From a virus: a stretch of 29,256 nt of DNA. Of the stretch, positions 846-26,378 are shown piece after piece. The notes beneath the pieces are model-generated. The model ran no database searches and had not been told where the DNA came from. It saw only the letters and a program-made list of their open reading frames with translations. Positions within the stretch are counted from its first letter, which is position 1. The number at the start of each line of letters is the position of its first letter. The translations under genes and the position numbers were made by a program. The stretch is taken from IMG/VR virus record IMGVR_UViG_3300025141_000527, positions 1 to 29,256 of that record. One strand, given 5' to 3'.

Positions 846-1334
846 ATGGCTCTTATAAAAATATCAGATGTATCAGTTGATAAAAATCACGAAGCCGGCT
901 TAAGAGACGGTTATCTGTATAAGGATCTCTTTTTAGATTTAGTGCCTGAGGTATACTATAACAAGCAACTAAACAAAAATGTAATCTTAAAGGATGTACA
1001 AGGCTCATATGATCTACAAGCTATTAAAAACAGCATTATAAATATATTTTTAACATCCCCGGGGCAAAAAATATTAAGCCCGTTATTTGGTCTGGATTTA
1101 AGGAGATATCTATTTGATCCTGTAAATAGTTCTACTGCATATATGATAAAATATGATATCGATACAAAGTTGCCTGACCAAGAGCCAAGAATAGAACTGT
1201 TAAATGTGAATGTAGATGCTGTTACAGATGCTCAGGAATATTACATATCTATGCAAATAAATATACCGTCATTAAACGCATACGGGATAACACTTAAGTC
1301 GTTATTAAATAGTAACGGATACTACGTATTATAA
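846..1334 (+). CDS. 25: gp25-like baseplate wedge protein
   Basis: A 162-residue member of the GPW/gp25 family (T4 gp25 is 132 residues), a wedge component that joins the inner baseplate to the tail tube and sheath initiation complex. Residues 54-95 (YDLQAIKNSIINIFLTSPGQ, then FGLDLRRYLFDP) match the helical core of the family. The EPRIEL block at 113-118 carries the characteristic E-P-R signature. The roughly 50-residue N-terminal extension is longer than in T4. It is followed after four bases by the gp6-like gene, the same gp25-gp6 adjacency seen in marine T4-like phages. The ATG start is supported by the TAAATA core six bases upstream, and there is no Shine-Dalgarno. Confidence 0.88.
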   Translation: MALIKISDVSVDKNHEAGLRDGYLYKDLFLDLVPEVYYNKQLNKNVILKDVQGSYDLQAIKNSIINIFLTSPGQKILSPLFGLDLRRYLFDPVNSSTAYMIKYDIDTKLPDQEPRIELLNVNVDAVTDAQEYYISMQINIPSLNAYGITLKSLLNSNGYYVL

Positions 1335-1338
1335 GACC

Positions 1339-3186
1339 ATGCCAACGAACACAAACGAAACCTCAAATAAATTTTTAGATTTTAATCTGCCACAAGACGC
1401 GTACGTTGCGTTTGATGCGGTAAGTTTAAAAGATTATATTATTAATCGATTAGATGAAAATGAAAAATTTACTGATCAAAATTATGATGGGAGTAATTTA
1501 GCTGCTGTAATTGATATAATTGCATATTCATATCATGTTCTTTTATTCTATTTAAATAACACCGCGTCCGAGGTAAATTTTGATCAAGCTACTCTATATG
1601 AGAACATGAACAAAATCGTAAAACTTATAGGCTATAAGCCAGCTGGAAAGCAGACTTCTATTGTTCCTTTAAACGCGGTAGCATCAACATCTCTACCAAC
1701 CGGAAATTATACTATACGCAAATATTCTTATTTCTTAGCAGATGGAATTCAATACAATTTTAATGAGGATATTTCTTTTAACAGAAATAATGCTGGTGAA
1801 GTAGAGACTCTACAAACTGTAAATGATGAGGTAATATTGTATCAAGGAACCATTAAAGAGTATCCGGATTACACTGCCCAGGGCGAGGAATTTGAAATTT
1901 TACCAATAGTCGTGGAGAACATTGTAGATAGTAATAGTGACAAATTTATTGCTGACGGTACAATAAGTGTATACGTAAAAGAGGCAGGTAATAGCACATA
2001 CTATGAATATAATATTGTGGAGAGTTTATACCTTTCTAAATCCGTTGATAGGGTATGTGAGATACGATTAAACGAATATGGTCATTATGAGATCAAATTT
2101 GGAAACGGGGTGTTTGGTAAGAAATTAGATTCAGATGATATAGTATCGGTTAATTACCTACAGTCCGATAACACTAGTGGTGTTATTAGTAAAAATATAA
2201 TTAACGGTAACAAGCTGTTTGTTTATGACTCATCTCGTCAGCGTGAATTATTTAACGATCTGTACCCGAATAAAAACGAGACAACGTTTTTAAATATTAC
2301 CAATAGTCCAAAAATTACATTTAATAACCCTTTAAATTCTTCTGCATTATCAACAGAGGAGACAGTTGAGCAAATTAGACAAAATGCTCCAAAGATGTTT
2401 TCATCTCAATTAAGACTGGTCACAGAAAAAGATTATCAATCATTTTTAGAGAGAAACCTAGCTAACGTAATTACCAGTACACGAGTTGTAAGTAATGAGA
2501 GTTATATTAATGAGTATATACAATATTTTTACGACATATGTGTTGATCCAAATAAAGTAAATAGAGTAATAATTAACCAGGTAAATTTTGCTGATTCTTG
2601 TGACTTTAATAATATTAATGTTTTTGTTGTACCGAAGTTTAAGACTATCGAAGATAAATCATACCCACCATTTTTAAGTAATTCCTTTAAAAATTATATA
2701 GTTACACAAACACAAGATCGCAAAATGCTTTCTAACACTGTTGTCCCTAGAGATCCTATCTATATGGCATTTGGGTTAGGCATAGGTGATGCTGCTAACT
2801 TGAGCTTAGATATATTAGATCAAACTAAACTCTATGCTGTTCGAGAAACAAATAATAAGATTAACAAATCTACATTAAAAGCACGAATAGGGAGTTTAAT
2901 TACAAAGTTTTTTGAGCCTGGAGATAATACACTAGGTGGAGACTTAAAATTAGTAAACCTAGCTAACGATATTCTTTCATTAGAAGGAATAAAGCGAATA
3001 GAAACAAGAAATGAGCAGACCGGAGAAATATTTACTGGAGGTATATCATTTTTGTCATTTAACCCTCAATACCCAGAAAGTGATATAGAGTTAGTGAACC
3101 AAGATAAAACATTACCGTTTTTTAAGTTCCCCTATCTATACTCTCCGCTGTCTGTAACCAAGCGTATTGTTATAACAGATGAGTAA
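1339..3186 (+). CDS. 6: gp6-like baseplate wedge protein
   Basis: 615 residues, against 660 for T4 gp6. In T4, gp6 forms the wedge ring that holds adjacent baseplate wedges together and controls the dome-to-star change. The N-terminal region is typical: DENEKFTDQNYDGSNLAAVI, then a helix IIAYSYHVLLFYLNNTASEV and the block EVNFDQATLYENMNKIVKLI around residues 75-100. The middle has the baseplate J-like beta region and the helical block EETVEQIRQNAPKMFSSQLR near residues 340-360, followed by LVTEKDYQSFL, a signature of J/gp6-type proteins. It lies four bases after the gp25-like gene and overlaps the next gene by eight bases, so the three are probably translated from one transcript. Confidence 0.85.
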   Translation: MPTNTNETSNKFLDFNLPQDAYVAFDAVSLKDYIINRLDENEKFTDQNYDGSNLAAVIDIIAYSYHVLLFYLNNTASEVNFDQATLYENMNKIVKLIGYKPAGKQTSIVPLNAVASTSLPTGNYTIRKYSYFLADGIQYNFNEDISFNRNNAGEVETLQTVNDEVILYQGTIKEYPDYTAQGEEFEILPIVVENIVDSNSDKFIADGTISVYVKEAGNSTYYEYNIVESLYLSKSVDRVCEIRLNEYGHYEIKFGNGVFGKKLDSDDIVSVNYLQSDNTSGVISKNIINGNKLFVYDSSRQRELFNDLYPNKNETTFLNITNSPKITFNNPLNSSALSTEETVEQIRQNAPKMFSSQLRLVTEKDYQSFLERNLANVITSTRVVSNESYINEYIQYFYDICVDPNKVNRVIINQVNFADSCDFNNINVFVVPKFKTIEDKSYPPFLSNSFKNYIVTQTQDRKMLSNTVVPRDPIYMAFGLGIGDAANLSLDILDQTKLYAVRETNNKINKSTLKARIGSLITKFFEPGDNTLGGDLKLVNLANDILSLEGIKRIETRNEQTGEIFTGGISFLSFNPQYPESDIELVNQDKTLPFFKFPYLYSPLSVTKRIVITDE

Positions 3187-5434
3187 TATACCAGTTAACT
3201 ATGCAACGTTTGACGTAGAAGATTACAAGCGAGAAGCTAAGCTATCTTCTTATAATTTACCATTTACCCCGCTAGTGTTCAAAGCTCGTATACCTAGTTC
3301 ATTGGGCGGGGAAGCAGTAACAACTCAGTATAATACTTTAAAAGCTACCTTTGACTTTGGTGACGGTACTTATGGTAACACTCTCACTAGTAGTCATGTA
3401 TACGAGTATCCCGGGGTGTATAATGTAAGAATGGTGCTTCGTGATTGTGATAACAATTCAATATTAGCAGCATACAGTACCGATATTACAATACATGATT
3501 ATATAACTAATACCTTTACACTCGTATCAGGAACTTTAAGTGCAAACGTGTTAGAGTTATCAGCTGGTGAGTTCTCTAATGCCATAACAATTAATTCACA
3601 GTCACCCTTCTATCAAGATTTTCAAGATATTTACTTTTCTATATCAGGGTGTGATTCACCTAATTACTATAATTTAGATGCTAATAAATTTAACAATCTT
3701 AAGACGTTTAATTCATTTTATAAGAAGAATTATATTAATACTCTGTCTGGGTATGAATACGAAGATATAGATAAAATTGCTCTTTCTTCTACTAATATCT
3801 ATATGAGATTGAGTGGAAATAATCACGTTTCTGGAAAAGGTCCTTCTGCTTTTGCAATTATCAATACATTAAGCTCACATATATCAAGTGTCAACGTAGG
3901 GAGTTCAGGTAAGCAGATAGTGTACTTTAAGACTGACGAGCAAAAAGCACCGTATCGCCATATTAACATATCGTTCTTTAAAGATAGAAATAATATTTTC
4001 TCTAATAGCACAACCGGGTATAAAAATAATAATTATGCAAATAATTTTACAATTACACTATCGTCTCTCGTAGGCCCCACATCTGCACAAACTATTAGCA
4101 GCATCGCGATAACGTCAAACGGAATCCCCGGTGAGAGTGATAGTGTAGAAACCTTTAATGTTTCCCCGGTTCAATTTAAAGGATTAGGAATCCCGTTTAT
4201 TCTTTCACCAAAGAATACAGGCTACTACACGATGAAGGCTCTATCTAGTCATAGAGAGCCAATCTTTCAATTATTATCCGGTAGGGCTCCGCAGATAGTA
4301 CCTGGTGTAAGCGGTGTACCTGTAAGCACAACACATTATACTATTGAAAGTCTAAGCGCTACTCTATCTTCTCTAAATACAAAATTCTGGTACAGGGGGC
4401 TTTTAACATTTAACGATGATACTCTAGCTTCTATCTCAGCGAAACCAGCGTTTTTAACTCTTAGTGCAAAGTGTCCATATAGCACTCTCTCCGGAGATAT
4501 TCATACAGCGAGTAACACTGTATCTGGATATACATCCTTTACATGTTATCCTAAAAATCATTATGAAGCATATAAGCATAATGAAAATTTCGATTTTGAG
4601 CAAACAATAAAAGATTTAAGATTTCAAGAAATTTTATTAGATAAAAATATACTGTTTACAGACTTTATCGGAAGTATATTCGGAAATGTAAGCAGTAGGT
4701 ATACCGTACTTGGTAAAAAGCTGTGGGAAAGGATACAAAACTTTACATCAAATACTAGTGATATAGATTACTGCGATATAAACTCTCTTATTAATTTAGC
4801 CAATCTAGCAGATGACGATGGGTTAGTATTTGATAGAGCCTTAGCACAACAACCGGAATTAGTAGATAGATTATTAAGTCAGTTGAGCATTAACTATAAT
4901 AAGTTTAGAGGTACAGAAAATAAGTTTGATGAAAACTACGACCCTCAAGGCCATACAACAAAAACCACTTATGGAAAAAATTTAAGTGCACTGCTGGATA
5001 CGGCAACTTATCAAGTTACTGCAGGTACAGATATTGTAGCCTTCGAAAAGTTTAGCGGTATTTATACAAGGCTAAACACGTATCAGCCTTTATGTGCGTT
5101 AAGCGGTAATCAATATTCTAAAGCGGGTGACACAACGACATATATGCTTAGTGATTTTTCTACTCTTCATGATAGAACAAGCAGTGGACCGCATTGGGGA
5201 TGGCCTCTCGTACTACCAGCATCATATGACACTCCATCAGAAGTAGATAAATTTTATAAGTTTTATAGTTTATCTGCAGTATATGATAATACTATTATAG
5301 GCGGATTAATTGATTATTCAAACGGATTAACAACCTTGGACTATAGTACACCGCTTAGCTCACTCCAGGGCGACAATAACATATTTGATGTTATGATTCG
5401 AAACTCCTTATTTAGTAGTCTATCTCTGTTCTAG
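3179..5434 (+). CDS. Large virion protein with PKD domain, probable baseplate component
   Basis: 751 residues. A PKD/Ig-like fold is visible at about residues 57-110 (TFDFGDGTYG, then HVYEYPGVYNVRMVLRD), a module usually involved in protein or glycan contacts on surfaces. The middle is Ser/Thr-rich with many LSS, LSG and LSA motifs, suggesting repeated beta structure. From about residue 460 the protein becomes charged and helical (NFDFEQTIKDLRFQEILLD, KKLWERIQNF), a region that could dock to the wedge. It starts inside the stop of the gp6-like gene (eight-base overlap, translational coupling). By position it would be a gp7/gp8-type wedge component or a decoration of one, but I see no convincing T4 sequence match. 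Confidence 0.75.
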   Translation: MSNIPVNYATFDVEDYKREAKLSSYNLPFTPLVFKARIPSSLGGEAVTTQYNTLKATFDFGDGTYGNTLTSSHVYEYPGVYNVRMVLRDCDNNSILAAYSTDITIHDYITNTFTLVSGTLSANVLELSAGEFSNAITINSQSPFYQDFQDIYFSISGCDSPNYYNLDANKFNNLKTFNSFYKKNYINTLSGYEYEDIDKIALSSTNIYMRLSGNNHVSGKGPSAFAIINTLSSHISSVNVGSSGKQIVYFKTDEQKAPYRHINISFFKDRNNIFSNSTTGYKNNNYANNFTITLSSLVGPTSAQTISSIAITSNGIPGESDSVETFNVSPVQFKGLGIPFILSPKNTGYYTMKALSSHREPIFQLLSGRAPQIVPGVSGVPVSTTHYTIESLSATLSSLNTKFWYRGLLTFNDDTLASISAKPAFLTLSAKCPYSTLSGDIHTASNTVSGYTSFTCYPKNHYEAYKHNENFDFEQTIKDLRFQEILLDKNILFTDFIGSIFGNVSSRYTVLGKKLWERIQNFTSNTSDIDYCDINSLINLANLADDDGLVFDRALAQQPELVDRLLSQLSINYNKFRGTENKFDENYDPQGHTTKTTYGKNLSALLDTATYQVTAGTDIVAFEKFSGIYTRLNTYQPLCALSGNQYSKAGDTTTYMLSDFSTLHDRTSSGPHWGWPLVLPASYDTPSEVDKFYKFYSLSAVYDNTIIGGLIDYSNGLTTLDYSTPLSSLQGDNNIFDVMIRNSLFSSLSLF

Positions 5435-5439
5435 AGATA
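5421..5439 (+). other. Small hairpin overlapping a late box
   Basis: TATCTCT-GTTCT-AGAGATA is a perfect seven-bp inverted repeat with a five-base loop. It covers the end of the upstream gene, including its stop, and the first bases of the GATAAATA box. It would be present in readthrough RNA but absent from RNA started at the box. Short and AU-rich, so the functional claim is weak. Confidence 0.3.
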
Positions 5440-5443
5440 AATA
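5436..5443 (+). promoter_or_regulatory. Late-promoter-like GATAAATA box
   Basis: GATAAATA lies in the 15-base gap between two structural genes, six bases before the ATG at 5450. Its downstream context (ATAAATATGTTTAATGG) closely resembles that of the box before the 9056 gene. Confidence 0.6.
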
Positions 5444-5449
5444 TGTTTA

Positions 5450-8449
5450 ATGGATACAATTGTTACAGGCTTCCCTGAAGTAGATTTATCTATAACTAAC
5501 CCTAATGTACGGCATGATGACGCATTAGATAAATTTACGCCGTTCTCATTTGTTCAATTTATTGAAACAGTAAGTGAACAATACCAACCAGAGACTTTAA
5601 CGGATTTTTATAATGCCTACCTTAATAGATGGAATATTAAAAATACTGGGCTAGGACAAGATAACAAAGAAACGATAATTGAAAGATACCGTGATTTCTT
5701 AAGAGATATCACTTTAAATTTTTCTACCAACGCAGAAAGAACCTTTTTAACTCAGTTAGATTTTACAGATTCATACGATCTCGAAATGGCAATGTCTTTT
5801 TACAGTAAGAAGATAAGAAGTATTATTTCATATTATAAGAAAAAGCGCCAAAGAGTTTATTACGCAGTTACAAAAGCTAAAGTTAAAGGAAGCTCTTTAG
5901 GCGTAGAGCGCGCTGCAATAGATCTTGTTCTGGATTTTTTAGAAAATCGTAGTACAGCAGCAAGAGACTACGACATTACTAAAATTAAAAAAGATCTGTC
6001 AATATCAGTTACAGAGTACTTTGATAATTTTTCTCAGTATTTTAATAGACCTCCGGATGATAAGGTATATGGTAGTACTTTTAAGAGCTACGATACTGCT
6101 AATCTACCGAAAGATAATATATTTTTAGCTACCGACGAGTCTCTTATACAACAAGTTTTTGCTAATGTTGGGGAAGATTTAATTGCCCTTAAGGAGGGCC
6201 GGGAGAGTTTAAATTTTAAAATATCTGACGATTCAATCTTTGGTAATAAGAGAAAGTTAACAGAAAAATTTATGGGAGCTGATTTTTATTATCTAGCTAC
6301 GGATGAAAATGGTAACCCGGAATTTGACGAAAATAATCAATTAAAACTTTTATTTAAAGCGGATAAGCCATACGCTAATTTTGTAAATCAGGATTTCCCT
6401 TCTACAGCTTCTGTATTCTCTGATCAAATTGTTAGTGAGAGGGACCTAGGGTTCTTTAGACCACAAAACTCTGCAATTGTCGTAATTGAAGGAAAACGGC
6501 TTCAATTTTTTACAAGAAAAAAATACCCTCCTAACCAATTATACATATTTCCGGATCCGAATCTCTTTACTAACACGGAGAATGTCTTAACTTTTATTAT
6601 TGACACTTCTAGATCTATTAATAATGCCAGTAAGGGAATTGCAGTAAATCAACCTAATACTGATAGAGATAGTTCTGCTTTTATTGGGTATAATTCCGAA
6701 ATGGGCCAAGATAGAAATTTAAATACAGATTTATCTTATCTCTTTGATGAGGGATATGTAGCCGACGGTAAAAGAGATTTATTCGGTAATATTTTCGGGC
6801 TAGTAAAAGACAATAACTATTATCGAAATAATGTAATAAATGAAACTCCAAAAAAGGTAAAAAGCCTATTAATGAACGGTTATCAATTTTTTGATGACCT
6901 ATATGGTGAAGGGTATAAGTTTTCATACAAAGTAGCAGATTCAGCTACATTTACTGAAACTATAAGATCAGGACTATCTACATTTACTAATGGATTTTCC
7001 GGTAGAGGTCCAGCTGATTTACTACCTGATACACCAGGTAGCTGGACCAGCTTTCCAACGTCAGCATATAATATATTTTATAGATATTTTAACCCATATC
7101 AGACTTTACTTCAGCCTTCAAACTACTTGGAGGTAGACTACGGGCGGCCCATTGGTTATACGATTGATGCGGACGTAAAAGAAGGGGCATACTTTGCTTT
7201 TTCAGATACTGAAGCACTTGTAGACCCGACAAGTGCTACTGATATTGGTACATCAAATGTTTCTGATTTAAGCTCTTATGCTACAAGCACTGCACAATTT
7301 TATTTTTCAGAACTAACAGAAGCAGGTATTGGGTTGTTTAATGTAAATCCACCGTATCCGGATAACACGGATTTTGCGACCAGGACCATATTTACAGCAT
7401 TATGCGATCCTACTGACGCGTGGACAAAAAGCTTAGTCGGTAATTTTACTTACAATGTACGACTATCCGGAGGATCGGGAAATAGTGGTAATGATGTTAA
7501 AAATTATGACGGTGGGCTGTTCACAGATAATATAATATTTAATTACGCACCAAACGAAGAAACTTTTGCATATAATGCGGATGTATTTTCAAAAACTACT
7601 ATAGCTAATGTAACTTCTGCTCATGAGCAATTTTTTAATAAGAGAGAGCATCTAGGAAAAATTTATGTTAAAAATGTAAACAAAGCGTGGAATACACCTG
7701 CTGTAAAAGAACTTACAGACTGGTTACCTTATCTGTCCACAAAATATAATACTGCAATCTGTAATGAACTGTCGACAGCAATAGTTAATTTTGATATTTT
7801 TTATAGTACTTTGTTTATTGAGACTAGTAGTTATCTAATTATAGAGAGAACAAATTACGATAATGACAAGTTCGTTTCACCTAATTCATTTACAAACTCA
7901 CTGACTATTAATACAAACTTTTTTGATAAGGTAAGTAATAGGTTAAAAGTACAAGATGATGTATTTTACTGTAGAATGGCAAGAGAACAAATAGGGTATA
8001 AGGGTGATAGATTTTTTCCACAGATCTACAAATATAATTATATAAACGATAAGACCGAACAAATATATCCAACAACCGGAAATCCTACTATCTCTTCTGC
8101 AGCGTTTTTCTCTTTAACAGCTGATCCATCTGTGTACATTGAATGCAGTAAACCTATACTAACATATAGTAGTGATAACGAGCAGTTTAATCTTGGTGTT
8201 ATTTTAAAAGATCAGAACAAAGGACCTGTATTGCTAAACTATCTTTTTCAATACATGGATAATATTGAATTTTTAAATACTGAAGCATATGTTTGTAATA
8301 ACAGCAGATTTACCTTTAACTTTACACAATCTGCAAAGAATATACGCGATTTAGATAATATAAACTTTGTGTTATCATCTATTATACCTGCTTTAACAAC
8401 AACTAACGTATCACCATCACCACTGTCCGGAGCAGCTTTAATTTTATGA
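5450..8449 (+). CDS. Very large structural protein, probable baseplate wedge (gp7-like by position)
   Basis: 999 residues, close to the length of T4 gp7 (1032 residues), which links gp6, gp8 and gp10 in the wedge. The first 200 residues are helical and charged (QFIETVSEQYQPETLTDFYN, SFYSKKIRSIISYYKKKRQR), as expected for a docking domain. The remainder is a long mixed alpha/beta region rich in Asn, Asp, Tyr and Phe without a recognisable enzymatic motif. It follows the PKD protein by 15 bases, with its own GATAAATA box, and its stop overlaps the next start in an ATGA junction. The gp7 assignment rests on size and gene order, not on sequence similarity that I can see. A baseplate or tail-fibre scaffold is the alternative. 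Confidence 0.75.
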   Translation: MDTIVTGFPEVDLSITNPNVRHDDALDKFTPFSFVQFIETVSEQYQPETLTDFYNAYLNRWNIKNTGLGQDNKETIIERYRDFLRDITLNFSTNAERTFLTQLDFTDSYDLEMAMSFYSKKIRSIISYYKKKRQRVYYAVTKAKVKGSSLGVERAAIDLVLDFLENRSTAARDYDITKIKKDLSISVTEYFDNFSQYFNRPPDDKVYGSTFKSYDTANLPKDNIFLATDESLIQQVFANVGEDLIALKEGRESLNFKISDDSIFGNKRKLTEKFMGADFYYLATDENGNPEFDENNQLKLLFKADKPYANFVNQDFPSTASVFSDQIVSERDLGFFRPQNSAIVVIEGKRLQFFTRKKYPPNQLYIFPDPNLFTNTENVLTFIIDTSRSINNASKGIAVNQPNTDRDSSAFIGYNSEMGQDRNLNTDLSYLFDEGYVADGKRDLFGNIFGLVKDNNYYRNNVINETPKKVKSLLMNGYQFFDDLYGEGYKFSYKVADSATFTETIRSGLSTFTNGFSGRGPADLLPDTPGSWTSFPTSAYNIFYRYFNPYQTLLQPSNYLEVDYGRPIGYTIDADVKEGAYFAFSDTEALVDPTSATDIGTSNVSDLSSYATSTAQFYFSELTEAGIGLFNVNPPYPDNTDFATRTIFTALCDPTDAWTKSLVGNFTYNVRLSGGSGNSGNDVKNYDGGLFTDNIIFNYAPNEETFAYNADVFSKTTIANVTSAHEQFFNKREHLGKIYVKNVNKAWNTPAVKELTDWLPYLSTKYNTAICNELSTAIVNFDIFYSTLFIETSSYLIIERTNYDNDKFVSPNSFTNSLTINTNFFDKVSNRLKVQDDVFYCRMAREQIGYKGDRFFPQIYKYNYINDKTEQIYPTTGNPTISSAAFFSLTADPSVYIECSKPILTYSSDNEQFNLGVILKDQNKGPVLLNYLFQYMDNIEFLNTEAYVCNNSRFTFNFTQSAKNIRDLDNINFVLSSIIPALTTTNVSPSPLSGAALIL

Positions 8450-21118: not shown

Positions 21119-22045
21119 ATGGCAGCATTAGCAGGATTTCCAACTGATATATCATTACCCGCGGAGGCGAGATATTACACTTTCGTAGAGATTGGTAAGT
21201 CCTTTAATTCGAATTATGATATAACCTGGTCTTTTCAATATAAACTTCCAAGCACAAGCTTCGGTGAAACGGCTAAATCACATAATTATCAGTTAGGGTT
21301 TTCAACATTTTTAACTAATCTACCCAGACCGCTCTCTTGTCTACCGGGACAGTATCTAGGTGATCAAGATCCAGAATTTATATTATCAGCGCATGCCTTA
21401 TTAACTGAAGGATATACCAAAGCATTCGTGCTGTCTTCTTCACAACCTTTAAAAACTGAATCAGATTCGACAATTTTGCTCGAAGGCGCTATATTAAGTG
21501 GAATGTTAGTAAAGGTCGCATTTGATTCTACCGGTGATTATGCTTTAACCGGGCGAGATGATAGACCTGGTGTAAAGCCACACCAGGTATTAAGAGAGTC
21601 AATCGTTGTACGAGATTTTCTTCATAATGTACTTGCTTATAATCATCTGTCTTCTATATCAACTACCTTTAGTACAATATCTACTGATACATATAGAACA
21701 TTAAGATTCAGATATGTCAATCTAGGGCAAACACTATATATTGATACCCATAACAGCGATAATACTACTTACACCGTATTAACTGCTATTGATTTAGGGT
21801 CTAGATATAGTGGTTTATCAAATATAGAAAACGTTTATTGTGGATTTGCCTTTTCCACTCCTATTTCAGCAAATTATGCAGCACCTGAGGCAGCTTATCA
21901 ATTAAGCGCAAAAGACTTTTTCTTAAGAAACTTCCATGTTGAAGGATATGAGGGCAGCCAAGTACTTACTGAAACTATACGCACCCCTAGCTTAAGTACA
22001 GTGCCAAATACACCATATACAACCGTATCTAATATTACAGCATAA
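21119..22045 (+). CDS. Beta-rich, lectin-like virion protein
   Basis: 308 residues. The succession of strands, DITWSFQYKLPSTSFGET, then NYQLGFSTFLTNL, ILLEGAILSGMLVKVAFDST, LRFRYVNLGQTLYIDTHNS, VYCGFAFSTPIS and FFLRNFHVEGYE, resembles an L-type lectin/concanavalin-like jelly roll. It ends in a Thr/Ser/Pro-rich tail (IRTPSLSTVPNTPYTTVSN) that anticipates the Thr/Pro-rich composition of the next protein. Its stop shares one base with the next start (TAATG), so the two genes are tightly coupled and their products may assemble together. There is no signal peptide. A glycan-binding or fibre-associated role is inference from the fold-like pattern. Confidence 0.7.
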   Translation: MAALAGFPTDISLPAEARYYTFVEIGKSFNSNYDITWSFQYKLPSTSFGETAKSHNYQLGFSTFLTNLPRPLSCLPGQYLGDQDPEFILSAHALLTEGYTKAFVLSSSQPLKTESDSTILLEGAILSGMLVKVAFDSTGDYALTGRDDRPGVKPHQVLRESIVVRDFLHNVLAYNHLSSISTTFSTISTDTYRTLRFRYVNLGQTLYIDTHNSDNTTYTVLTAIDLGSRYSGLSNIENVYCGFAFSTPISANYAAPEAAYQLSAKDFFLRNFHVEGYEGSQVLTETIRTPSLSTVPNTPYTTVSNITA

Positions 22046-25000
22046 TGGCAACACCTTCTCCAAATTCAAATGATTCAACACCGGGTCCTTATGATCCGAC
22101 ACCGAATCCTAATGATTCAACACCGAATCCTACGTCGACAAACACAGGGAAGACAGAGCCTACGTCGACAAAGACAGGGAAGCCAGAGCCTACAAGTATA
22201 AATTTAGGGAACCCAGGTGTTGAGATTCTGGACGTTGATTGTACTGTTGTTACATATCCTTTATTAGGTGGTGGGGGAATTCCTAATTCTTTTGCAAATA
22301 CAACGGGTGTTGTTAACATAAACTCTATTACTATAAGTAATGATTTTGAAGGCCAGGTTGACTATTTTATTGAAGATTATCACACTCAAGCAGAGCTCCA
22401 AGATGGTGTGTCCGCAGCCGTTAATCGTAGCGTTGATATAAACATACCGCAATTAACGTTAGTATCTGATCCTGTTGAAGGAGACGGGAGCATGGACGTA
22501 AGTATTGCTCTACAGCAAATTGTAGATGGTGTACCATATGTTAAGAATATAACAAAAAATATATCGAATCCGGCGGATGCTTTTCGGCTTACCCCAGAGC
22601 AGTTTGAAGCACTTAAAAAGAAGGAAGAAGCAGATGCAGCCGCGGCTGAGGCGGCGGCGCAGGCTGCGGCTGCGGCTGCAGCCGCGCAGGAGGCAGCAGA
22701 TAGAGCTGCAGCGGACGCAGCCTCAGCAGCCGCGCAGGAGGCAGCAGATAGAGCTGCAGCGGAGGCAGCTGCCGCCGCTAGAGAGGCTGAAAACGAAGCT
22801 CAAAGAAAGGCGGATGAAGCTAACCGAGCTAATAATAGAGATAGTAGCCAGCCCCAGGTGGATATAAAGGATACTTTTATAGCAACTACAGGACCGGGAA
22901 GCGTTAGGGAAATAGAAGAACAGTTAACATTAGCAGTCAGCAAAGCTGGTGTATCTGAAGCGGAAGCTGGATTGGCCCTTGATGCTAAAATCCCTAGGGA
23001 TTCTAGAGGTTATCGGCCAGGGTTAAAATGGCTTAAACGTGTAATTGATCAAAAAACGTTTAATAACGCGTTTGAATCCAGAGTTAACAACGCTGAAGCA
23101 GCTGGGAAAGCTGCTGAAAAAGCGGCCGCAACTGTAGTACCTTTATCAGAAGCTGCTGAGGAAGCTATTAAAACTTGGATAATTGCTTTAGATGTTTCTC
23201 GTGTGGAAGGTATAGATCAGCCCATAGATCCATATTTAAGCGACACATTACAGGCAGTTAATTTACTAAAACAGGCTGCCAACTCCGCAAAAGAATTAGG
23301 AAGCGTTTCACAGGCCTTAGGATCAGAGGTTGGTGCGAACTCACGATGGAGGATTACTCGATTAACAGAAGACGCGGCTATAGCTTCAAATGATGTATTA
23401 GGTCCAGTTGATAAAGCACTTGAACTTTTAACAATCTATTCTCAAATAAAAGAACAAGTGGATGCTGCGGCTGCTGCTGCTGAAGAGGAGCGCGCAGCTG
23501 AAGCTAGAGCTGAGGCTGCTCGGCTAGCCGAGGAAGAAAGAAAGGCTGAGGAAGAAAGAAAGGCTCAGGCAGAGAGAGATCGTAAGGCTCAGGCAGAGAG
23601 AGATCGAATAGCTGATGAAAAGAAAGAAGCTGAAGATCGTGTCGCTGCACGAGCAGCGCAAGCAGAGAAAGATCGTTTGGAGAGAGAGCGACAGGAAGCT
23701 GAGAAAGAAAAAAATGAAGCGGAGCGCGTTCGGCGCTTAGAAGAGATTCAGAAGAAAAGAGATGAAGTTCGAAGGCAGCAGAGGGATGACTTATTACCCA
23801 CGTTAAGTGAAGAAGAGCTAACACGTCGTATTAATACAGCGCAGCAAACTCTTACAGATATTGAGTCCGGACTAAGAGCTGATCCTCTAGGATTATTATC
23901 AGTATGGACCGCGGAGGATTTACAGGCGTATCAAGCTGAAATACAGCGAAGAGGTGAAGAGGCAAAAGCAAGTTTAAGAAGATTACGTGAAATACAAGTT
24001 CAGGAAAGAGATGATCTAATACCTACATTAACAAGTGAAGAGTTAACAGAACGTATAGAATCTTTAAAACAATCCTTATCTAAAATCCAGGCCGGGGAGA
24101 AGGGGTTTAGTGACCCAACCGGATTGGCAGTAGGTTATATATCTGAAGATATAGAGGCATATGAAGAAGAATTAATTCCACGCGGTGGAGTCGTTTTTGA
24201 AGAGGAACAACCTTCAGATGAATGCTGTACTCCTATTGCAGATTGGAAGTGGGAGCCGAGTGCAAATCCTGGGGAACAGACTTGGGCTGATGGGTTACCA
24301 CCAGAATTAGGAATATTTGAAATAGATGATGTAACTACAGGCAGCAACTGGGAAAGCGTAATTGTTAGACATCTTGGTAAATGTTATTCTATTATCGATA
24401 AGCGGCGCGCTAACAGGATACCTAGGTATCCTGACATACCACCGGATGCACAAAATCCAAATAACCCATGGGAGTTATGTAACGGTCACGGAAGGTGTTG
24501 TGAAGAAGGTGATTCTGATGATACTACACCGGATGATACTACACCAGATGATACTACACCAGGTGTCACACCGGAGCCATGTCCTGAAGGATTGGTAAGG
24601 AATGAACTAACCGGGGAGTGTGAATACCCACCGTGTCCAGCTGGGCAGGAAAGAGTTAATGGGGAGTGTGTTGACGTGTGCCCCGAAGGGTGGAGAAGAG
24701 ATTCTGAAGGTAATTGTTATGATCCAGAAGAAGAGGATGAAGATGAATCAGATGGTTCCGGAAGTGGTAGTCCGGTTGATGATATAATAGAGCTTCCCAG
24801 TTTGATATGGTCGGATCCTACAAATGATAGTGGCGACTTTACGATATACGACGACCCAACAACTGAGCCTCCGTATAATACCCCACCACCTTATACTACG
24901 CTACCATACACCACTCCGCCGTACACTACTCCGCCGTATACAACGCCGCCGTACACTACTCCGCCGTATACAACGCCGCCATACACCACCCCACCGCCGC

Positions 25001-25311
25001 CATGTACCACCATACCGCCGCATATAGTGCCACCAAGCAACACCGGTTTTTTGGCTGATGAAGATGATGATATAATTGAGATTATAACAGATCCACCAGA
25101 TCCACCAGAGCCGCCAGAGCCGCCAGAACCTCCGACATTTATATACCCAGCTCCAATTTTACCATTACAGACCCCGTTCTTAATGAATGAGGTAGTAGTT
25201 ACTGTACCGACAACCACAACGACCACAACCACTACTACGCCAGCACCGGTAATAACTACTACAACAACATTATGCCCTGAAAATGAGGATTGCAATACTT
25301 TGCAATTTTAG
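22045..25311 (+). CDS. Mosaic coiled-coil, Cys-rich, mucin-like virion protein
   Basis: 1088 residues in clear blocks. Residues 2-55 are a Pro/Thr/Asn repeat region. About 65-185 is a beta-rich domain. About 190-275 is an Ala-rich coiled coil with a 16-residue tandem duplication. About 470-580 is a highly charged coiled coil (EEERKAEEERKAQAERDRK). Two copies of a 75-residue repeat start at R580 and R655 (RDDL(L/I)PTL). A Cys-rich part spans 726-892 (CNGHGRCCEEG; CPEGLVRNELTGECE; CPAGQERVNGEC). Three DDTTP units (825-839) come before an acidic stretch. Six YTTPP units (about 955-984), PPEPPEPP, and a Thr tract with TTTPAP (about 1053-1076) finish the chain. This suggests a long fibrous stalk with an extended, possibly glycosylated end. 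The glycosyltransferase gene follows. No family recognised. Confidence 0.75.
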   Translation: MATPSPNSNDSTPGPYDPTPNPNDSTPNPTSTNTGKTEPTSTKTGKPEPTSINLGNPGVEILDVDCTVVTYPLLGGGGIPNSFANTTGVVNINSITISNDFEGQVDYFIEDYHTQAELQDGVSAAVNRSVDINIPQLTLVSDPVEGDGSMDVSIALQQIVDGVPYVKNITKNISNPADAFRLTPEQFEALKKKEEADAAAAEAAAQAAAAAAAAQEAADRAAADAASAAAQEAADRAAAEAAAAAREAENEAQRKADEANRANNRDSSQPQVDIKDTFIATTGPGSVREIEEQLTLAVSKAGVSEAEAGLALDAKIPRDSRGYRPGLKWLKRVIDQKTFNNAFESRVNNAEAAGKAAEKAAATVVPLSEAAEEAIKTWIIALDVSRVEGIDQPIDPYLSDTLQAVNLLKQAANSAKELGSVSQALGSEVGANSRWRITRLTEDAAIASNDVLGPVDKALELLTIYSQIKEQVDAAAAAAEEERAAEARAEAARLAEEERKAEEERKAQAERDRKAQAERDRIADEKKEAEDRVAARAAQAEKDRLERERQEAEKEKNEAERVRRLEEIQKKRDEVRRQQRDDLLPTLSEEELTRRINTAQQTLTDIESGLRADPLGLLSVWTAEDLQAYQAEIQRRGEEAKASLRRLREIQVQERDDLIPTLTSEELTERIESLKQSLSKIQAGEKGFSDPTGLAVGYISEDIEAYEEELIPRGGVVFEEEQPSDECCTPIADWKWEPSANPGEQTWADGLPPELGIFEIDDVTTGSNWESVIVRHLGKCYSIIDKRRANRIPRYPDIPPDAQNPNNPWELCNGHGRCCEEGDSDDTTPDDTTPDDTTPGVTPEPCPEGLVRNELTGECEYPPCPAGQERVNGECVDVCPEGWRRDSEGNCYDPEEEDEDESDGSGSGSPVDDIIELPSLIWSDPTNDSGDFTIYDDPTTEPPYNTPPPYTTLPYTTPPYTTPPYTTPPYTTPPYTTPPYTTPPPPCTTIPPHIVPPSNTGFLADEDDDIIEIITDPPDPPEPPEPPEPPTFIYPAPILPLQTPFLMNEVVVTVPTTTTTTTTTTPAPVITTTTTLCPENEDCNTLQF
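22678..22773 (+). repeat. 48-bp tandem duplication in Ala-rich coiled coil
   Basis: Two units, 22678-22725 and 22726-22773. The first 38 bases are identical in both copies and the last ten diverge. Each encodes about 16 residues of the type AAQEAADRAAA. The segment is GC-rich in an otherwise AT-rich gene because of GCN Ala codons. The near identity at DNA level suggests recent duplication. Confidence 0.8.
24517..24561 (+). repeat. Three 15-bp units encoding DDTTP
   Basis: GATGATACTACACC(G/A) occurs three times in direct tandem, giving DDTTPDDTTPDDTTP between the two Cys-rich blocks. The copies differ only at the last base. Confidence 0.85.
24892..24996 (+). repeat. Seven 15-bp units encoding YTTLP and six YTTPP
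   Basis: One YTTLP unit is followed by six YTTPP units with no interruption. The units at 24922-24951 and 24952-24981 form a 30-bp higher-order duplication differing by one base, so the array probably changes by slippage or recombination. The product is a Tyr-spaced Thr/Pro array like a mucin or plant cell-wall repeat. Confidence 0.88.
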
Positions 25312-25322
25312 TAATTATTAAT

Positions 25323-26150
25323 GTGGAAAAGCTTACTATTGGAACTTGTGTTTATGACGATTACGAAGGTCTTTATTTTACAATACAGTCTTTAAGATTA
25401 CATCATAAAGAAGTATTAGATAGATTAGAATTTGTTATTATTAATAACAATCCAAAATCTCCACAAGGAAAAGAAATACGTAAATTTGTTGAATGGATAA
25501 AGGAGCCAGTGACATATGTTGAATTTGATGCATATTCTGCAACTTCTTTAAGAAATAAAATATTCGGGTTAGCAAATACAGAATACGTATTAGTATTAGA
25601 TTGCCATGTATTGTTAGATCCTGGAAGCTTAGAAAAGCTTTTAGAATTTTATGATACAGGTAGAGATCATCGTAATTTATTACAGGGGCCGTTAATATAT
25701 GATGATATGAAAAATATAAGTACGCACTTTGATTTAAATAAGTGGGGCGGGGATATGTGGGGGGTATGGGCTACAGATAAAAGAGGAAAAGATATTTCTG
25801 CAAAGCCATTTGAAATACCAGCGCAAGGTTTAGGTGTATTCACCTGTAGAACAGACAGTTGGTTGGGGTTTAATAAAAAATTTAGAGGTTTCGGTGGTGA
25901 GGAAGGATATATTCATGAAAAATACAGAATCGCTGGCCGGAAGACAGTTTGCTTGCCCTTTCTCCGGTGGTTGCATAGATTTGGTAGACCACTTGGAGTA
26001 CCATTTAATCCAACTAAGGAAGATAGATTCCGTAATTATATGATCGGTTTCCAAGAAATTGGAAAGGATACTAACGAAATTATCGATAGATTTAAGGATA
26101 AAATATCAAAGACATATATCCAGACTGTTAAAGACGAGTTAGGATTATAA
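25323..26150 (+). CDS. GT-A fold glycosyltransferase, polypeptide GalNAc-transferase-like motifs
   Basis: 275 residues from GTG 25323. A TTG at 25290 would add eleven residues inside the previous gene, and the ATG at 25321 is out of frame. It begins directly with the first GT-A strand (KLTIGTCVYDDYEGLYFTIQ). It has the nucleotide-binding VIINNN strand at about 37-43 and LVLDCH at about 90-95. This D-x-H replaces the usual DxD and is the form typical of GT27 polypeptide GalNAc-transferases. Later come GFGGEEGYIHEKYRIAG (about 190-206) and FLRWLHRFG with a His at 218, arranged like the acceptor and metal-binding C-terminal part of that family. It should transfer a sugar from a UDP-type donor. 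Its position behind the Thr/Pro-rich virion gene suggests modification of that protein. Family GT2 is the alternative. Confidence 0.8.
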   Translation: MEKLTIGTCVYDDYEGLYFTIQSLRLHHKEVLDRLEFVIINNNPKSPQGKEIRKFVEWIKEPVTYVEFDAYSATSLRNKIFGLANTEYVLVLDCHVLLDPGSLEKLLEFYDTGRDHRNLLQGPLIYDDMKNISTHFDLNKWGGDMWGVWATDKRGKDISAKPFEIPAQGLGVFTCRTDSWLGFNKKFRGFGGEEGYIHEKYRIAGRKTVCLPFLRWLHRFGRPLGVPFNPTKEDRFRNYMIGFQEIGKDTNEIIDRFKDKISKTYIQTVKDELGL

Positions 26151-26160
26151 ATTACCTAAC
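26138..26160. other. Inverted repeat between convergent genes
   Basis: GTTAGG (26138-26143) and CCTAAC (26155-26160) flank an 11-base AT loop at the six-base overlap of two convergent genes. There is no T tract on either side, so it is not a standard terminator. It may slow or block opposing transcription. Confidence 0.3.
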
Positions 26161-26378
26161 GTAGCTTCTACCTTGAGATCATGTTTCATTGAGTGGAATC
26201 TCTCATCGATATATTTTTGAAAAGCTAATGGTTTAATCCATTTATTACTCGCGATATCGATATCTTCTCTTCCTCCGACCACTTCAAGGGCTTCTATTAA
26301 ACAAGCCCATCGAACTAGTTCATCAAAATTCATAGTTTTTGTCGTACCGTCTTTTAGTGTAAATTTATGTTTTTCCAT
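26145..26378 (-). CDS. Small unknown protein (77 aa)
   Basis: 77 residues, MEKHKFTLKDGTTKTMNFDE, then helical segments (LVRWACLIEALEVVGG and LAFQKYIDERFHSMKHDL) and a short tail. It is soluble and of mixed charge, with no motif I recognise. The pattern of a short beta hairpin followed by two helices could fit a small regulator. Its 3' end overlaps the glycosyltransferase gene by six bases in convergent orientation. The 17-base GGAACTATAATATAATA element lies nine bases before its ATG, inside the end of the upstream gene, so it may have its own promoter. Confidence 0.7.
   Translation of the reverse strand: MEKHKFTLKDGTTKTMNFDELVRWACLIEALEVVGGREDIDIASNKWIKPLAFQKYIDERFHSMKHDLKVEATLGNL

Follow-up and report, generated by a model that had tools for sequence, protein, structure and literature searches.

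The GT27 polypeptide N-acetylgalactosamine (GalNAc) transferases of eukaryotic mucin-type O-glycosylation favor threonine (Thr) residues next to proline (Pro). Glycosylation of Thr-rich proteins is also described outside eukaryotes. In Streptococcus mutans, the GT-A glycosyltransferase (GT) gene pgfS lies directly downstream of the Thr-rich adhesin gene cnm, is cotranscribed with it, and is needed for modification of its product, Cnm (PMC5856776). Among mycobacteriophages, phage-encoded GTs are linked to glycosylated virion proteins in Che8 and Rita (PMC11256854, citing Freeman et al. 2023). Here, we analyze IMG/VR virus record IMGVR_UViG_3300025141_000527, positions 1 to 29,256 (the window, meaning the whole 29,256-nucleotide stretch), in which the gene for a 1088–amino acid (aa) Thr/Pro-rich protein is followed directly by a GT gene. 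The author of an earlier note on this DNA knew of no described phage system of such a kind; virion glycosylation has, however, already been described for mycobacteriophages. We find that the adjacency of this GT and Thr tracts in phages is far from chance, and that the GT probably O-glycosylates the Thr tract of the adjacent putative tail protein.

Results

A Thr-rich protein and its neighboring glycosyltransferase

The 1088-residue open reading frame (ORF), its six terminal YTTPP units and Thr tract, and the LVLDCH and GGEE...WLHR blocks of the GT, all reported in the earlier note, are present in the window (Table 1). The adjacency of the two genes was also correctly described, although 11 bases, not 12, separate the stop codon of the first from the GTG start of the second. 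The final 154 residues of the 1088-aa protein include 40 Thr and 43 Pro, and its poly-Thr tract is made up of TTTTTTTTTTPAP (25210–25248) and a second Thr run (25255–25269). This Thr tract exceeds the chance level: The densest 40-aa segment of the protein has 17 Thr. In 200 shuffled versions of the protein, this count never rose above 13, and the remaining tail proteins in the window reach 3 to 11. A DNA-microsatellite origin was rejected because the tail uses a mixture of all four Thr codons (ACT 13, ACA 11, ACC 11, and ACG 5). No Pfam family was matched by the 1088-aa protein, and its one PHROG match was weak and covered the charged, coiled coil–like middle. Because it is sited at the end of a T4-like tail operon, we consider it to be probably a structural protein, forming part of the tail in phages.

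Table 1. Coordinates of the Thr/Pro-rich protein, the GT, and neighboring features in the window.
Feature	Position	Strand	Basis or remark
1088-aa Thr/Pro-rich protein, candidate GT acceptor	22045–25311	+	ORF; stop 25309–25311
N-terminal Asn/Ser/Thr/Pro tandem repeats of candidate acceptor, 21- and 30-bp units	22069–22193	+	
Six YTTPP units (one YTTLP before them)	24907–24996	+	
Poly-Thr tract TTTTTTTTTTPAPVITTTTT, mixed Thr codons	25210–25269	+	
C-terminal tag CPENEDCNTLQF-stop of candidate acceptor	25273–25311	+	
275-aa GT, GT-A fold, GT27-like by structure, GTG start at 25323	25323–26150	+	PF00535, model, fold search
DxH metal-binding motif (D93-C-H95) of GT	25599–25607	+	Invariant in both alignments
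E193-E194 of GGEE block, candidate catalytic/acceptor-loop acids	25899–25904	+	Invariant in both alignments
H218 of WLHR, candidate third metal ligand	25974–25976	+	Invariant in 54 phage sequences, >90% in 55-sequence alignment
77-aa conserved neighbor gene	26145–26378	−	Outside proposed system; GT-independent anchor for covariation
308-aa tail-operon protein, weakly legume lectin–like beta sandwich	21119–22045	+	AlphaFold and Foldseek
gp25-like gene	846–1334		T4-like tail operon
gp6-like baseplate wedge gene	1339–3186		T4-like tail operon
gp10-domain/adhesin-like protein, 966 aa	13384–16284		T4-like tail operon

The pairing recurs across uncultured phages

A scan of viral sequences returned 262 relatives of the GT, from which 80 loci were kept; further loci came from two more scans. 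We reduced the viral set to 39 representatives (<75% identity) and defined a Thr-tract ORF as one with at least 14 Thr in 40 residues. Other phages do keep both genes together, a search that the earlier note had proposed: 25 of the 39 representatives carry a Thr-tract ORF at most 3.5 kb from the GT. Such ORFs occur at 0.617 per kb in the nearest 500 bp to the GT, and no farther bin exceeds 0.043 per kb. Among adjacent cases, 115 of 125 have a stop-to-start gap of 10 to 13 nucleotides (all loci counted, some repeating one contig). Across nine whole contigs (991 kb), all (ACN)7 runs, that is, runs of seven Thr codons, lie 71 to 5268 bp upstream of the GT; five of these contigs are closely related, and the confinement therefore amounts to about five independent cases. 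Within the window's wider lineage, the upstream proteins vary from 629 to 1913 aa and have divergent middles, and most retain the Thr/Pro stretches, the C-terminus, and the gap. The pairing also occurs in gene neighborhoods unlike that of the window (L074, L227, and L248). At a further locus (L347, 5139–6656), a poly-Thr ORF is followed 10 nucleotides downstream by a different GT2-like ORF, missed by the GT family profile, which is possibly an independent case of poly-Thr/GT pairing.

The mostly dissimilar Thr-tract proteins beside the GT have a C-terminal tag in common, C-x(1-12)-C-[NKL]-x-L-x-[FYW]-stop. Of 19 GT-adjacent Thr-tract ORFs, 15 carry it, and among 1396 other ORFs it occurs twice, each time in a Thr-rich protein encoded upstream of this GT. 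Note that the pattern was derived from these same data, so the counts describe it rather than test it. Fairer checks come from the Thr-tract ORFs of 120 viral poly-Thr stretches, where the tag occurs in 3 of 7 at GT-carrying loci and 0 of 107 elsewhere, and from a scan with one nucleotide version of the tag, which returned 10 contigs, 8 with the GT adjoining. The tag was rejected as a strict marker of the GT: Two tagged contigs lack the gene (L443, 70 kb; L445, 41 kb), and the tag is thus not strictly bound to the enzyme. It may help the transferase to recognize its acceptor, or it may anchor the protein in the particle. A GT-lacking sister lineage (L477 to L490, and L445 at 2542–7983) has a modified tag of the CDDEEDCDTLGF type, with acidic residues replacing the Thr run ahead of it.

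Covariation was assessed at loci collected via the 77-aa opposite-strand gene, of which 50 were nonredundant and had enough sequence. Thr tracts are present at 25 of the 30 loci with the GT, compared with 6 of the 20 without it (Fisher test, P = 2.5 × 10−4), and the C-terminal tag follows the same division (24 of 30 versus 4 of 20, P = 3.8 × 10−5). Within the last 90 residues of homologous tails, the median number of Thr is 20.5 with the GT and 9 without it (P = 0.001, rows uncorrected for relatedness).

The glycosyltransferase resembles GT27 enzymes in predicted fold

By sequence, the GT matches PF00535 (Glycos_transf_2, GT2) with an E value of 3.7 × 10−9 and 37.2 bits, against a curated cut-off of 23.3, and so do all 54 members of the phage GT alignment (E ≤ 0.01). 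The structure model built on this alignment has a mean predicted local distance difference test score (pLDDT) of 93.9. When the model was compared with solved structures using Foldseek, the top 50 rows were all GT27 polypeptide GalNAc-transferases, several of them solved with mucin peptides. Rescoring with VIA-align placed GT27 structures at ranks 1 to 29 (Z 19.6 to 23.9, ~250 residues, 2.7 to 3.4 Å), followed by chondroitin polymerase (18.9), RmlT (18.4), and TarS (17.2). Hence, in the comparison with GT27 and GT2 that the earlier note had suggested, GT27 comes out as the best fold match (Z up to 23.9 versus 18.9 for the next family).

Aligned identity to solved GT27 enzymes is 14 to 17%, and membership of GT27 by sequence was rejected, as profile searches match GT2 and the sole GT27 chain listed is GalNAc-T7 (E = 0.37). 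With the single protein sequence as query, solved structures gave chance matches only, and a profile-based search with the GT family returned GT2 enzymes. Given a GT27-like fold but GT2 sequence profiles, we therefore describe the GT as resembling a GT27 enzyme and do not class it as one; the GT27-like label of the earlier note thus stands for structure and falls for sequence. From its model, the GT may work like a GT27 enzyme. A C-terminal ricin-type lectin domain is not present in the 275-aa protein, in which the GT-A domain alone was recognized.

In a wider alignment of 55 phage and bacterial sequences, G191-x-E193-E194 is invariant. E193 and H218 are 25 residues apart, the same spacing as that of E334 and H359 in human GalNAc-T2, and D93, H95, and H218 are presumably equivalent to the ligands of that enzyme. 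No close family member was found by tblastn among 50,697 named phage records (three GT family members as queries) or among plasmids (one query).

Bacterial homologs also neighbor Thr tracts

A bacterial scan yielded 80 loci with GT homologs that are 42 to 51% identical over almost the full length; Oricola and Rhodococcus are among the genera represented. Many have, within ~3 kb, a small ORF with a twin-arginine–like (Tat-like) N-terminus and a mixed-codon Thr tract; at others, the Thr-tract partner is a PqqD-like protein. A strict pattern (Tat-like plus W-x-[KR]-P...PAHA) is present at 18 bacterial loci. A Thr-tract ORF lies no more than 3.5 kb from the GT in 32 of 62 bacterial representatives, and no such ORF was found beyond 5 kb from it in 435 kb. 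As a control, we took 30 further GT2 loci, with flanks of ~1.5 kb, found in seven of these genomes. None has a Thr-tract ORF, compared with 18 of 51 family loci (P = 6 × 10−5), which rules out that any GT2 gene neighbors Thr tracts.

Several further genes accompany the bacterial GTs. Among the 80 loci, 36 have an HprK-related kinase match overlapping the GT ORF, 48 have a PqqD-like match within 5 kb of the GT, and 30 have a nucleotidyltransferase-like (NTP_transf_5-like) match. A further part, classed as GT25-like by its motif rather than by a profile match, is present at 39. Clusters of Tat-like Thr-tract proteins, PqqD, HprK-related kinase, an uncharacterized nucleotidyltransferase, and one or two GTs, often fused, are seen at L118 (7199–12351) and across L082 to L161; the kinase part of L118 scores below the TIGR04352 cut-off. 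The literature searched, mainly non-subscription papers, contains no description of the function of HprK-A/PqqD clusters or of their link with GTs. These bacterial associations, in which the GT is fused to or near the kinase, PqqD, and the nucleotidyltransferase, often with a second GT, would suit a different modification of the Thr-tract protein, by phospho-sugar or multistep processing like that of ribosomally synthesized and posttranslationally modified peptides, with the phage borrowing host partners. We regard this as very unlikely, given that no HprK, PqqD, or second GT gene was recognized in the window and that a GT27-like fold suits direct transfer to peptide Thr.

The GT tree separates viral and bacterial sequences almost cleanly (2 label changes), and the Thr-tract state requires at least 21 changes on it. 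The near-single viral clade, together with a gap and tag shared by descent at many loci, could mean that the link is one of ancestry only: The acceptor C-terminal module and the GT would have moved together once, and the gap would reflect descent plus translational coupling with no functional interaction. However, this would leave unexplained the repeated changes in Thr-tract state, the bacterial partners that are dissimilar to the phage ones outside the tract yet stand beside the GT, and the fewer Thr in the homologous tails of GT-lacking sisters. We give it hardly any credence.

Genomic context of the pair

Domain and profile matches show that the window, a fragment from an uncultured virus, carries a T4-like tail operon with gp25, gp6-like baseplate genes, and tail-collar and adhesin-like genes. 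The gp6-like protein matches only distant T4-like phages, the best rows being cyanophages at ~27% identity. The 966-aa protein has a gp10 C-terminal domain match and a glycine-rich, Gp38-adhesin–like stretch (below the Pfam cut-off), and is a possible host-range determinant. The last three genes of the operon encode, in order, the 308-aa protein, the 1088-aa Thr/Pro-rich protein, and the GT, the last plus-strand gene before a switch to genes on the opposite strand. For the 308-aa protein, the AlphaFold model has a pLDDT of 72, and the best Foldseek match is 2pel_A (E = 8.2 × 10−6), with a template modeling score of just 0.3 to 0.4. In one related lineage (L045/L205), the Thr tract is fused to a homolog of this protein.

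Discussion

The proposal of the earlier note, that the GT acts on the adjacent Thr/Pro tail, draws support from the fold, the adjacency, the (ACN)7 confinement, the covariation, and the bacterial pairing, and is weakened by relatives that have no Thr tract. Several observations weigh against it. The GT is GT2-like by sequence. It has no Thr-tract partner in the T4-like L026, L030, L201, and L211, in a replication operon (L054, L070, L189, L197, and L236), or between terminase-like and portal-like genes (L260, L264, L268, and L277). Conversely, it accompanies just 5 of the 120 viral poly-Thr stretches in the DNA examined around them; Thr-rich stretches are kept in some GT-lacking relatives (L445), and the tag is found without the GT in L443 and L445. 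The earlier note had named relatives with the transferase and no Thr/Pro protein nearby as evidence to the contrary, and such evidence is in part at hand, because some related phages carry the GT with no poly-Thr run in the contig. Several 34- to 94-kb contigs of GT clades without a Thr-tract partner have zero (ACN)7 runs. In these clades, the GT may have other acceptors or use sparser Thr sites.

The terminase-like and portal-like labels derive from position and length only, and the loci with these genes represent a different phage type. Poly-Thr tracts of at least 12 codons are frequent in environmental viral proteins (L287 to L406) and mostly unexplained. The count of 5 in 120 rules out that every poly-Thr phage protein has a GT of this family, and Thr tracts thus often occur without one.

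Such exceptions would fit a GT that modified another target, such as host lipopolysaccharide, capsule, or another surface glycan, and had its place at the tail operon end without any link to the tail protein; the Thr tracts would then be ordinary flexible linkers. GT2 folds serve many acceptors, the tract is absent from some related phages that have the GT, and poly-Thr tracts are common in viral proteins without a GT of this family. We nevertheless consider another target unlikely, since the pairing recurs in unlike phage neighborhoods (L074, L227, and L248) and in bacteria, it is absent from all 30 control GT2 loci, and Thr tract and GT covary on an independent anchor.

If the GT does glycosylate its neighbor, transferase and acceptor would be produced from one operon, presumably by cotranslation. 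In the host cytoplasm, the transferase would move a sugar, with GalNAc as one possibility, from a nucleotide-sugar donor onto Thr hydroxyls. The outcome would be an extended, sugar-coated arm on the tail protein, which could stiffen it, shield it from proteases, or change adsorption or recognition.

The pairing in many uncultured phages and unexpectedly many bacteria suggests an undescribed prokaryotic form of protein sugar-coating. We lean slightly toward a new prokaryotic family of GT27-like peptide O-glycosyltransferases that acts on poly-Thr/Pro tracts, both in phage tail proteins with the Cys-pair tag and in exported bacterial proteins from several phyla, encoded in PqqD/HprK-A/nucleotidyltransferase clusters. 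If true, a class of uncultured phages would have mucin-like, sugar-coated tail proteins together with their own enzyme, and the family would also act in a bacterial gene cluster that is widespread and unexplained. Phages and bacteria would then both have mucin-like protein glycosylation with an acceptor signal of its own. This would provide compact bacterial-type enzymes for Thr/Pro O-glycosylation with a testable acceptor tag, as well as an assayable function for bacterial HprK-A/PqqD clusters. A further question would be whether the fold shared with eukaryotic mucin-type transferases arose by common origin or by convergence.

Comparison with known systems

The literature searched, again mainly non-subscription papers, holds no description of a phage Thr-rich protein paired with a GT, with the tag and a bacterial counterpart. 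Mycobacteriophage virion glycosylation likewise involves a phage-encoded GT. There, however, the acceptor is the major capsid protein, and the GT genes of Maravista are located toward the 3′ end of its genome. In the Pgf system of S. mutans, as here, the GT gene is directly downstream of the gene for a Thr-rich protein. In contrast, PgfS is bound to the membrane, acts together with two membrane proteins and an epimerase, and has a cell-wall adhesin as its acceptor; no Pgf-like membrane protein or sugar epimerase was recognized beside the window GT among the ORFs examined. The HPr-rel-A clusters (TIGR04352 HprK-related kinase A, PqqD, and NTP_transf_5) have GT homologs beside Tat-like Thr-tract proteins, although none of their partner genes was recognized in the phage window. 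Finally, GT27 enzymes have a C-terminal lectin domain that the 275-aa phage GT lacks, and the latter differs further in its low aligned identity, its PF00535 (GT2) profile, and its phage and prokaryotic distribution. Nonetheless, GT27 is the best structural match to the phage GT, with which it shares the GT-A fold, the DxH motif, and the GGE...H layout.

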